From contig JAAVEO010000010.1 of NCBI GenBank assembly GCA_014801225.1, positions 2,935-66,934 of the forward strand: 64,000 nt of DNA. The letters are read 5' to 3'. This document shows, one piece after another, positions 27,736 to 49,029 of the stretch. The DNA comes from Bacteroides sp. GTDB lineage: Bacteria > Bacteroidota > Bacteroidia > Bacteroidales > Muribaculaceae. The position numbers were made by a program, and so were the translations under genes. Under the pieces are notes generated by a model, which made no database searches, had not been told where the DNA came from, and saw only the letters and a program-made list of their open reading frames with translations. How positions within the stretch are numbered: the stretch's first letter is position 1; each line of letters opens with the position of its first letter.

Positions 27736-27808
27736 GAGTTTTTCATGGTATTAGATTTTAAGGTTAACACAGAGATTGGTTGTCGGGAGACAATCAATTT
27801 TTTTTGTG
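27736..27808 (+). ncRNA. Small RNA unit, copy 1 (promoter -7 box 27724-27731; terminator hairpin + T8)
   Basis: TAATTTTG box, then gagtttttcatggtattagattttaaggttaacacagagattggttgtcgggagacaatcaattttttttgtg. Hairpin TTGGTTGTC-ggga-GACAATCAA followed by T run. Confidence 0.75.
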
Positions 27809-28015: not shown

Positions 28016-28088
28016 GAGTTTTTCATGGTATTAGATTTTAAGGTTAACACAGAGATTGGTTGTCGGGAGACAATCAATTTTTTTTGTG
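28016..28088 (+). ncRNA. Small RNA unit, copy 2 (identical 73 nt; -7 box 28004-28011)
   Basis: Exact repeat of 27736-27808 offset by 280 bp, with its own TAATTTTG box and conserved upstream TTTTTTATGTTGTAAARCAT. Confidence 0.75.
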
Positions 28089-39873: not shown

Positions 39874-39889
39874 AAACATTTATCTTATA

Positions 39890-39938
39890 AAGACAATAAT
39901 AAGGGCCGCGATATTATCGCGGCCCTTATTATTGTCTT
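39890..39938. terminator. Bidirectional terminator between convergent genes
   Basis: aagacaataataagggccgcgat-att-atcgcggcccttattattgtctt. Confidence 0.85.
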
Positions 39939-39952
39939 TGTCCTTATCAAGA

Positions 39953-40207
39953 TTACTTCTTGCTGCGGTTGCCATAACGGCTGCGGAACTTGTCCACACG
40001 GCCTGCGGTGTCGACGAGTTTCTGCTTGCCGGTGAAGAAGGGGTGGGAGGAGCTGGTGATCTCGAGTTTTACGAGAGGATACTCCTTGCCATCGATCTCG
40101 ATTGTCTCACGTGAGGCTACTGTGCTACGAGTGATGAAGATCTCATCGTTCGACATGTCCTTGAATACCACCTCACGGTAGGAGGAAGGATGAAGGTCTT
40201 TTTTCAT
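39953..40207 (-). CDS. rpmE2: 50S ribosomal protein L31 type B
   Basis: [74 protein letters not shown]. Confidence 0.95.
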
Positions 40208-46255: not shown

Positions 46256-46353
46256 ATTATTTGATGTTACGAAATGAGGTTTTCTTACGGCGATCGAACA
46301 CTACCTTTTCGTCTATACCATAAATACCGGTCAGTTAATCATAGTAATCTTTA

Positions 46354-47274
46354 TTATTTCTTGGAGTTAGAATCTTCATAGTGTTTGTTCATTTTTGAGA
46401 TTATCTCTGCAATTTCATCACGTAGTGTTTTGGGTGACAATACTTCGAGTTGCTCGCGGTGCAGTAGCAACTCCTGAATGAAATCAAAAGAGGGTTTTAA
46501 GCGAAGTGAAAAGTCAGTATATTCCTCACTTGATGATATTTCGCGTTGACTATGGTGCATAGGTAACGAACGGAGATAGCCCGGCAGTTCAGCATAAGTG
46601 CGGATCACAATGTTTTCGACTTTACCCCCGGTTCCTGCAACTATGCCGAACACATCTCGGAAATATTCGGCCGGTTCAAAGTCTTTCGGATAGATAAAGG
46701 GTTTGTCGGTGGTGTTAAGCATTTTGACTCTGTCAAGTGAAAAAATTCGCTTTCTATCTCTTTCTACTTCGCAAAGTACATACCATCTGCGTTTGAAAAG
46801 TTTTACACATAAAGGGCTGACGACTCCTGCAAACTTCACACCAAAGAAATTCTCATATTCGAGCTCTATCTGATGATTATTCTGAAGAGACAGAAGTACT
46901 GGTTCAAGCCATTCGCGCCCCGATGGTATTTCCTCCAAAAGAATCTTGTCCGCTATGGAAGCTTTGCCGAGAAGCAACTCACCGAGTGAGAAACTATCCA
47001 ATGCCCATTTTGTCAACGAGTTTTCCTCAATAGCTTCCGGATTGGCTATGCTATATAGATTGAGCCCACGTCCACGACGACATTCTATATCAATCCCGAA
47101 ATGACGAGCCACAGCCTGACAATGATTGTAGAATGTGCGCTTTGACAGCACAGAATCATTATCATTAACCGATGACTTGCTCCATTGATCGGCGATCTCA
47201 TCGTAAGTCATCTCTCCGCCACGCATTAAGGTGTCAATCAACCAGAGATAACGTTTTAAAAGGAGTTCAACCAT
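46354..47274 (-). CDS. WYL domain-containing transcriptional regulator
   Basis: N-term HTH, 'KLFKRRWYVLCEVERDRKRIFSLDRV' (WYL core), C-term WCX-like. Confidence 0.85.
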   Translation of the reverse strand: MVELLLKRYLWLIDTLMRGGEMTYDEIADQWSKSSVNDNDSVLSKRTFYNHCQAVARHFGIDIECRRGRGLNLYSIANPEAIEENSLTKWALDSFSLGELLLGKASIADKILLEEIPSGREWLEPVLLSLQNNHQIELEYENFFGVKFAGVVSPLCVKLFKRRWYVLCEVERDRKRIFSLDRVKMLNTTDKPFIYPKDFEPAEYFRDVFGIVAGTGGKVENIVIRTYAELPGYLRSLPMHHSQREISSSEEYTDFSLRLKPSFDFIQELLLHREQLEVLSPKTLRDEIAEIISKMNKHYEDSNSKK

Positions 47275-47344
47275 ATATTAATTCTTTTTACACGGCAAAG
47301 TTACCACAGTAATCGGCAATATAATTTCCGATTAAAATTATTTC

Positions 47345-47395: not shown

Positions 47396-48316
47396 TTATT
47401 TTGACGAATTATTTTTACAGTGAATCAATTCCACTATGTGGTTAGCATATAATTCTGCTAAATGGTTTATATCTGTTTTACTCTCCAGTCCAAAATATTG
47501 CTTTATCTTGTGACCGGCAGTTCCACAAATATGAGGGATATATCCAGACAATCTATTATCACTTTCTAATAACTCCCGACAACTTTTCTCAGCACTATGA
47601 CCAAGTGTCACAATCAATTTAGGATTGATAATATCAATCTCTTCTTTAAGGATATTACGGTATAGATCCATTTTCTCCGACGTGGTGTACATATCAGATT
47701 CATGATGGTTGTAGACAAAAAACTTCCTGCAGTCGGTCAAGTAAATGTTGAAACCTTTTTCAAGCAATGCACGCACAAGCAGCCACATTCGTTTTCCGCC
47801 ATTCCCTTTTTCACGGTGATGAGCATCCTGCAAACCAAAAGGAGATGATACAATAGCGTCATTGCAAATGTATCTCTCATCGACTTCATCTCCATACCAT
47901 TTAGCACTTCTAAGAGGATCTTGGGTTACAATCATTATGAACGTAGCTTCTGACGATTGATAGAACCATGTCGGTAAATCTAATCCTATTGCACCACGCC
48001 CTTGTTCTTTTGTACGAGCCGTAAGGTCTATAAAATTTGGATGATTGATAGGAATAGGCACTGCCGTAGTATCACCATAGTAAAATTCACGTCCCTTAGG
48101 AGCAAAGGGTTTAAGACCGTCACTAAATTCCCACTCCTTTTTGTCACCGGTTACAAAATCTTTAGGGTAGCTAAAAAAGTTATTACGCATATCATCGTAG
48201 CGACGTTCAATCTTATCTAATTGTTCTACTCCTAAAAGATTGTTTGCAATCAGTTCTTGGATTTTGTGAGAAATAGTCTCATTCTCACAAAATCCAAAGT
48301 TATTTTTATTCCTCAT
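47396..48316 (-). CDS. Uracil-DNA glycosylase superfamily-like protein
   Basis: 'IMIVTQDPLRSAKWYGDE' (motif A-like), 'IDIINPKLIVTLGHSAEKSC', 'IPHICGTAGHKI' (motif B-like). Confidence 0.7.
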   Translation of the reverse strand: MRNKNNFGFCENETISHKIQELIANNLLGVEQLDKIERRYDDMRNNFFSYPKDFVTGDKKEWEFSDGLKPFAPKGREFYYGDTTAVPIPINHPNFIDLTARTKEQGRGAIGLDLPTWFYQSSEATFIMIVTQDPLRSAKWYGDEVDERYICNDAIVSSPFGLQDAHHREKGNGGKRMWLLVRALLEKGFNIYLTDCRKFFVYNHHESDMYTTSEKMDLYRNILKEEIDIINPKLIVTLGHSAEKSCRELLESDNRLSGYIPHICGTAGHKIKQYFGLESKTDINHLAELYANHIVELIHCKNNSSK

Positions 48317-48326
48317 AGTAGAAAGC

Positions 48327-48572
48327 CTATAGTTTAGTTACGTCCCAATTACCTGCACATCTTGCACTATATGCAACGGAAGGGCCAAAACCTAACGCCA
48401 AAAGCACTCTTTCCACATCCTCTGATTTAGGAGTGGGTGCTGTGGTTGCCGAGGGCACTTGAATTGTGTAACCCTTGGGGATACGAGTAAGTTTACCCTT
48501 ATCCTTATCACGTACCACACCTCCATTTAAATCTCGCTTAGCTCTAAGAAGAAAATTATTCATGTTTTGCAT
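48327..48572 (-). CDS. Small protein (81 aa) upstream of the UDG-like gene
   Basis: MQNMNNFLLRAKRDLNGGVVRDKDKGKLTRIPKGYTIQV...; GGAGG upstream of ATG. The longer ORF to 48719 reads through the structured leader RNA and is unlikely to be real. Confidence 0.6.
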   Translation of the reverse strand: MQNMNNFLLRAKRDLNGGVVRDKDKGKLTRIPKGYTIQVPSATTAPTPKSEDVERVLLALGFGPSVAYSARCAGNWDVTKL

Positions 48573-48617
48573 TTCTCTTAAGCCTCCATTGACGCATTTC
48601 GGCACTGCGGTCACATG

Positions 48618-48838
48618 AAAAAAAGGCGCGACACCCTTTTCGCTTATCTGCTTTAGTCGGCTCTGGTAAACCGTGAGTTCGGATAAGTGGAAAGCGGTCG
48701 GCGCCCTGAACGGGTGCAACCTATCTTTCGACTTATTACACGGAACTCAAAAGTGAAATTTACCAGATTTTACTAAAGCCGGGTAATTAGTCAAAGCTAA
48801 TTGCTATGTAGTGAGTCTACAGAATAATCACATATACT
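48618..48838 (-). ncRNA. Highly structured leader/ncRNA ending in an intrinsic terminator
   Basis: Minus-strand promoter TTTG-N20-TAACTTTG. Nested helices GCTTTAGT/ACTAAAGC, CTGGTAAA/TTTACCAG, TGAGTT/AACTCA, ATAAGT/ACTTAT, GAAAG/CTTTC, GGTTG/CGACC, CCC/GGG. Terminator GCGA...TCGCGCC-T7. Confidence 0.7.
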
Positions 48839-48843
48839 CTGCG

Positions 48844-48875
48844 CAAAGTTAGCGATTTAATTTGATACTCACAAA
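48844..48875 (-). promoter_or_regulatory. Bacteroidetes promoter for the structured RNA (-7 at 48844-48851, -33 TTTG at 48872-48875)
   Basis: TTTG-N20-TAACTTTG on the minus strand. Confidence 0.7.
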
Positions 48876-49029
48876 CTGCCAACGCTTTCCAACGGCAAAA
48901 TTATACCATAGAAGGGAAACATCATTTCCGAATAGCAATTAATTTATTCCTTTTTCTTCGGAAATCCCTATGCTTAGTCATTTTACATCTATCCGCGTCA
49001 GGCAGTGAGTAGAATTATTTGTTCCGGAT

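Follow-up and report, generated by a model that had tools for sequence, protein, structure and literature searches.

Several described systems come close to the RNA analysed here. Amino-acid attenuators of the trp and his type use overlapping pairings, of which one set (0:1 plus 2:3 in the numbering used below) stops transcription and another (1:2) lets it proceed, with a U-run before the gene, and they have a leader peptide. Terminator-platform riboswitches have a closing P1 and inner helices that exclude a downstream terminator, and the T-box is likewise a leader attenuator. In the plasmid antisense attenuators of pT181 and pIP501, loop–loop contacts decide between terminator and antiterminator.

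Here we analyse an RNA on the minus strand of a 64,000-nt stretch of Bacteroides sp. DNA (the whole stretch is hereafter called the window) that, as modelled below, shares features of this kind with each system. It differs from the trp and his leaders in having no leader peptide, in its additional P1, P2 and loop–loop pair, and in preceding genes other than those of amino-acid biosynthesis. It differs from riboswitches in that no Rfam aptamer class is recognisable, the conserved bases are those of two hairpins (HP1 and HP2) and the regulon is mixed. The HP1 loop, CUGGUAA, resembles a tRNA-Thr anticodon loop, and the HP2 loop, UUACCAG, contains ACC, but the loci scanned gave no Rfam T-box match. 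Unlike in the plasmid systems, both loops lie in one RNA. We conclude, with a probability of about 0.82, that the window RNA is a cis-acting transcription-attenuator leader and a member of a large, multi-copy Bacteroidota family. The elements of the locus are as follows.

48844–48875 (−): Bacteroidota promoter; TTTG at 48875–48872, 20-nt spacer, TAACTTTG at 48851–48844
48618–48837 (−): whole leader RNA; 5′ end predicted, 3′ end at the T-run
48805–48821 (−): 5′ hairpin TGTAG/CTACA (48821–48807) and the overlapping motif ACATA (48809–48805)
48785–48802 (−): second 5′ hairpin, AATTAG/CTAATT; sequence differs among homologues
48772–48804 (−): region 0; its partner in the terminating fold is region 1 (48754–48716)
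48650–48779 (−): P1, GCUUUAGU (48779–48772) with ACUAAAGC (48657–48650); read-through fold
48662–48767 (−): P2, UCUGGUAAAUU (48767–48757) with GGUUUACCAGA (48672–48662); read-through fold
48756–48770 (−): HP1, AAAU-CUGGUAA-AUUU, with a 7-nt loop; alternative to P2
48658–48673 (−): HP2, CGGUUU-ACCA-GAGCCG in the Vienna fold; consensus GGYU/ARCC, loop complementary to that of HP1
48674–48749 (−): helix 1:2, the long central hairpin; read-through fold
48618–48707 (−): helix 2:3 (48707–48680 with 48650–48623) and T-run (48624–48618); predicted terminator of the alternative fold
48327–48572 (−): 81-aa basic protein, first predicted regulated gene; no Pfam, NCBIfam or PADLOC family
47396–48316 (−): UDG-superfamily protein, 306 aa, second predicted regulated gene; PF03167 match
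46354–47274 (−): WYL-domain regulator after the UDG gene; given for context, not as a member of the operon

Much of this architecture had been proposed in a first-pass annotation made from the sequence alone. The promoter was found as described (TTTG, 20-nt spacer and TAACTTTG); it is of the −33/−7 type, with transcription probably starting near 48837. The nested outer helices are also present (GCTTTAGT at 48779–48772 with ACTAAAGC at 48657–48650; TCTGGTAAATT at 48767–48757 with GGTTTACCAGA at 48672–48662), and the inner helices TGAGTTC/GAACTCA, ATAAGT/ACTTAT, GAAAG/CTTTC, GGTTG/CGACC and CCC/GGG form in the computed fold. The minimum free energy is −75.6 kcal/mol, against a mean of −55.8 kcal/mol (s.d. 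4.3) for dinucleotide shuffles (z = −4.61; 0 of 200 shuffles equally stable). The T-run, the 81-aa ORF and the UDG gene lie where they had been placed, the seven T's (48624–48618) ending 45 nt before the ORF start at 48572. One point calls for correction. CCGTG/CACGG within the hairpin is not the important alternative pairing; instead, the 5′ segment 48804–48772 pairs with the 5′ arm of the hairpin, and the 3′ arm pairs with the segment preceding the T-run. It follows that the main terminator is not the small hairpin formed locally ahead of the T-run. Elsewhere in the window, the FopS sRNA family of Bacteroidetes (RF04319) is matched twice, at 27736–27807 and 28016–28087 (+; 75 bits each).

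The family was delineated from a second locus with a UDG homologue (L004), in which the order RNA, small protein (a 72-aa homologue of the 81-aa protein, in the same position) and UDG is that of the window. The two loci have TCTGGTAAA and TTTACCAGAGCC in common, and their outer helix is changed on both sides (GCTTTAGT/ACTAAAGC in the window, TTCAGAC/GTCTGAA in L004). A search for TCTGGTAAA and TTTACCAGAGCC 60–90 nt apart matched Bacteroidales phage contigs and no fewer than 117 loci in genomes, almost exclusively of Bacteroidota or Fibrobacterota. Five matches (L013, L090, L093, L122 and L132) were judged by eye to be due to chance, lying within reading frames or lacking the fold; scans of viral sequences with shorter and longer spacings gave one likely chance match and otherwise nothing. 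A covariance model (R1) built from 74 pattern-found loci was then run on genome sets. It matched at least 134 of 393 sampled Bacteroidales genomes (about a third) and at least 26 of 297 genomes drawn across the phylum, rates that are lower bounds because scoring in these large draws was limited to the top few candidates of each genome. Members occur also in Flavobacterium, relatives of Fibrobacter and a Bacteroidales phage. At E ≤ 0.01, Bacteroides xylanisolvens XB1A has 11 copies, and Rikenella microfusus and Flavobacterium microcysteis have seven each. The model's E-values are rough, and the window RNA (48646–48780; 72 bits, E = 3.5 × 10−17) is itself one of the 74 training sequences. A weak palindromic match to both strands of the window at 39874–39954 (13 bits, E ~0.3) is probably due to chance. 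Same-strand tandem members were seen in L176 (1046–1182 and 1401–1540) and L147 (1272–1394 and 2397–2519).

No Rfam 15 family matched over the RNA in the window, L004, L011 or 14 further loci, nor did any, T-box included, at a permissive threshold (E ≤ 5), so the RNA is not already known there; a literature search for the motif strings found nothing relevant. The family is apparently new relative to Rfam 15 and the literature searched. Fremin and Bhatt (2021; PMC8040213) list unnamed palindromic candidates from Bacteroidetes, of which HMP_4078 lies near phage genes and HMP2_4205 and HMP2_1065 are predicted terminators. The likeness to the window family is one of description (palindromic, in Bacteroidetes), and the main-text descriptions of these candidates give no two-state model or regulon; that list may contain fragments of the present family.

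Homologues bear out the covariation that the first-pass annotation had put forward as a check, and they do so for two folds. At each of five consensus pairs of P1, both-sided changes occur in 31–40 of 74 sequences. In a swap test that needs no alignment, the pairing of each segment with its own partner was compared with its pairing with the partners of other RNAs, for 90 non-redundant RNAs. Own partners were preferred in P1 (−9.2 versus −2.2 kcal/mol), helix 1:2 (−33.3 versus −20.5), helix 2:3 (−25.3 versus −16.7) and helix 0:1 (−18.5 versus −12.6), and the control pairings 1:3, 0:2, 0:3 and 0:P1′ showed no such preference in the same RNAs. These results support two modelled states: state A, consisting of P1, P2 and helix 1:2, which would block the terminator; and state B, in which 0:1 and 2:3 followed by the U-run would form it. 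Helices 0:1, 1:2 and 2:3 are mutually exclusive in series, which is the logic of an attenuator.

The computed energies favour the read-through fold (−63.4 kcal/mol in the window against −53.7 for the terminating fold; means over 91 RNAs of −65.7 and −54.4), which is the stabler one in 89 of 91 RNAs. The transcript prefix ending at region 1 folds as 0:1, again in 89 of 91 RNAs. The terminating fold can thus start first, with read-through as the stabler end state, and in such a model a termination outcome would rest on folding kinetics.

The position of the RNA also fits a leader. At every one of the 75 loci where the sequence reached far enough, the RNA shares its strand with the longest ORF of the following 900 nt, and the chosen gene lies at a median distance of 89.5 nt. 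Upstream neighbours are split 39 to 22 in orientation. Of 89 members, 62 have TAnnTTTG at 25–160 nt before the conserved core (9 after shuffling), and a U-run follows the RNA in 69 of 91 (11 in shuffles). A recurrent unpaired motif, ACATA or ACATC, is found in 59 of 89 members, mostly ~45 nt before the core. The family thereby has the features of the general class of intrinsic-terminator attenuators, namely exclusive helices, one of them a predicted intrinsic terminator, between a promoter (62 of 89) and a co-directional gene (75 of 75). The annotation's suggestion of an attenuator or riboswitch-like leader is strongly supported by the two exclusive, covarying folds and by these co-directional genes. 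A strict U-run is missing in about a quarter of members and, since in some the AUG directly follows the U-run, the control might in part act on translation. A small HTH protein (~78 aa, motif ..IHIG..) sits right behind the leader at 12 loci (L020, L048, L055, L059, L060, L070, L071, L074, L076, L092, L100 and L121), several with the AUG immediately after the U-run, possibly a separate, recurrent association.

The other reading offered at first, a stand-alone RNA, would make this a trans-acting small RNA lying before genes by chance. Its own promoter and terminator and its very stable final fold would suit such an RNA, but downstream ORFs are close and co-directional at 75 of 75 loci, the conserved 0:1 and 2:3 pairings would be needless in a finished small RNA, and the loops described below vary and match in cis only, even among the copies of one genome. 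We regard it as quite improbable. Attenuation by a leader peptide was also considered and rejected. ATG-initiated ORFs spanning region 0 are depleted (23 of 90, or 26%, against 60% in shuffles), and ribosome stalling on such a peptide is therefore unlikely.

The attenuator reading is given further detail by HP1 and HP2. HP1 surrounds the 5′ strand of P2 with the consensus GAAAN-CNNNNAA-NUUUC, and all 74 sequences retain the pair that closes it (as A-U, U-A, G-U or G-C; 60.5 in shuffles), a conservation that the P2 fold does not require. HP2 surrounds the 3′ strand (GGUU/AACC, GGCU/AGCC, GGUA/UACC and GGCA/UGCC variants). Conservation of the CUGGUAA type in the seed set is a product of the search, which used this string as its pattern. 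Weaker model matches, unselected for it, have many other loops, each complementing its own partner: among 32 RNAs hand-picked for loops unlike the seed type, a perfect run of at least six was found in 31 own pairs, against 12% of swapped pairs. A census of loop types by the HP1 pattern mixed true and chance matches and was used only qualitatively. Copies inside one genome carry different loops. P2 is thus a cis helix that loop–loop contact could nucleate, and HP1 and HP2, judged by sequence, look like a kissing pair that would nucleate the switch. Mimicry of tRNA-Thr by HP1 (5-bp stem, loop CUGGUAA) was rejected, as the loop may also be CAUCCAA, CGACCAA, CUAGGAA or CUCGCAA with a matching HP2 loop; such compensated variation argues against tRNA specificity.

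A metabolite riboswitch would be a special case of the attenuator, the P1/P2 junction being the aptamer and a ligand stabilising the read-through fold. The logic of the expression platform would be identical, GAAA and RCC flanking P2 are conserved, and RibD_C/DHFR-like genes recur downstream. The regulated genes are nevertheless very mixed (restriction–modification, lipoproteins, HTH proteins, UDG and nucleases), the HP1 and HP2 stems account for the bases conserved at the junction, the alignments show no unexplained unpaired pocket save the far-upstream ACATA, and the P2 sequence varies freely. We consider a riboswitch unlikely.

In the attenuator model, polymerase would start at the −33/−7 promoter and make region 0, HP1 and region 1 first, so that 0:1 can pair. 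Were 0:1 to persist, region 2 would pair with region 3 beside the U-run, and transcription would stop before the gene. If region 2 took region 1 instead, helix 1:2 would form, the HP1 loop CUGGUAA would kiss the HP2 loop UUACCAG, and P2 and then P1 would zip up; the terminator could then not form and the 81-aa and UDG genes would be read. A cellular signal would set the balance, whether through the rate of elongation, a factor that binds the RNA or a ligand. We infer that transcripts are terminated or read through in vivo in this way, that the loops kiss and that a signal of this kind acts.

The downstream genes (cargo) are diverse: type I and III methylases, XRE-type HTH proteins, T9SS-sorted proteins, lipoproteins, RibD_C/DHFR-like proteins, UDG, phage genes and, assigned by eye, PD-(D/E)XK-like nucleases. 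RibD_C is present in 4 of 81 cargo proteins, and RibD_C/DHFR-like cargo was seen by eye at 4 of the 11 Bacteroides xylanisolvens copies. Identical or near-identical RNAs with a RibD-like gene occur across many Bacteroidales species (L018, L019, L023, L029, L039, L044, L049, L106 and others), a distribution that points to an integrative element having carried them between species recently. In L011, L012, L014 and L129, which are Bacteroidales phage contigs plus one genome contig, the RNA lies between the integrase and the terminase, in front of an ORF of 99 aa.

In the window, promoter and RNA form a 355-nt module (~48583–48934), which is 85–88% identical to its counterparts in L034 and L131, with the similarity stopping at the module edges. 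The three modules lead three different operons: the 81-aa/UDG operon in the window, a UDG operon in L034 and a PD-(D/E)XK-like operon (by eye) in L131. The RNA is thus a movable control module and UDG a recurring cargo. In L034 the operon is flanked by segments corresponding to the ends of the WYL gene (window 46284–46395 and 47195–47337; L034 3–143 and 3125–3342), the arrangement that would result from an upstream WYL gene with an internal deletion and a second, downstream copy.

Such mobility could instead mark an element that works at the DNA level, either a site of recombination or a mobile repeat, with palindromes that function as folded DNA, as in integron attC sites. The module moves among unrelated flanks, an identical copy is present in several species on an apparent integrative element, and structure is conserved beyond sequence; on the other side stand the upstream promoter, the downstream U-run, the 0:1 and 2:3 alternatives and a covariation that tolerates GU, and copies are mostly single per locus, without arrays. 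We give this reading very little credence.

The UDG-like assignment of the second gene proved weak but real: the window protein matches PF03167 at E = 1.7 × 10−4, slightly under the Pfam gathering score, and a homologue does so more firmly (E = 2.9 × 10−8). UDG homologues were found in 8 of 393 Bacteroidales genomes, one of them the genome that contains the window, and in none of the phage or plasmid records searched; the small protein was likewise absent from the plasmid records. The first-pass annotation had tentatively joined RNA, small protein and UDG into one unit, which as a dedicated defence or nucleic-acid-sensing system might resemble a type III toxin–antitoxin. Co-occurrence holds at several loci: the order RNA, small protein, UDG recurs in L004/L165 and L068, and the RNA precedes UDG in L034 and lies upstream of it in L163. 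It fails more widely, as UDG and the small protein are missing from most family members, most cargo is unrelated, several UDG homologues (L003 and L006–L010) have no such RNA nearby, and a near-identical RNA precedes the PD-(D/E)XK-like gene of L131. The window RNA shows none of the tandem repeats that characterise type III antitoxins, the window genes scanned matched no toxin family, and the reverse transcriptase of a retron is absent among the scanned neighbours (VKOR, UDG, WYL, UPF0227 and unknowns). A dedicated system is the least probable of the readings considered; UDG and the 81-aa protein are one cargo among many, not partners of the RNA. In L004, a DUF805b RNA (RF02914; E = 3.9 × 10−11; 1212–1247, +) lies between the attenuator and the start of the small protein.

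How gut Bacteroidota regulate their accessory and surface genes is poorly understood, and these bacteria have few known RNA switches. Found in about a third of Bacteroidales genomes, in up to 11 copies per genome, and absent from Rfam, the family would define a regulon of considerable size. More tentatively, and with the odds somewhat against it, kissing-loop attenuators may form a phylum-wide family that spreads as a small promoter-and-switch cassette, with a single shared signal acting on unrelated accessory genes (restriction–modification, nucleases, UDG, surface lipoproteins, HTH regulators, and phage and ICE genes). Its switch design, in which two hairpins with complementary loops would decide between terminator and antiterminator without a leader peptide or obvious aptamer, comes in a compact module with its own promoter that could serve as a genetic part.
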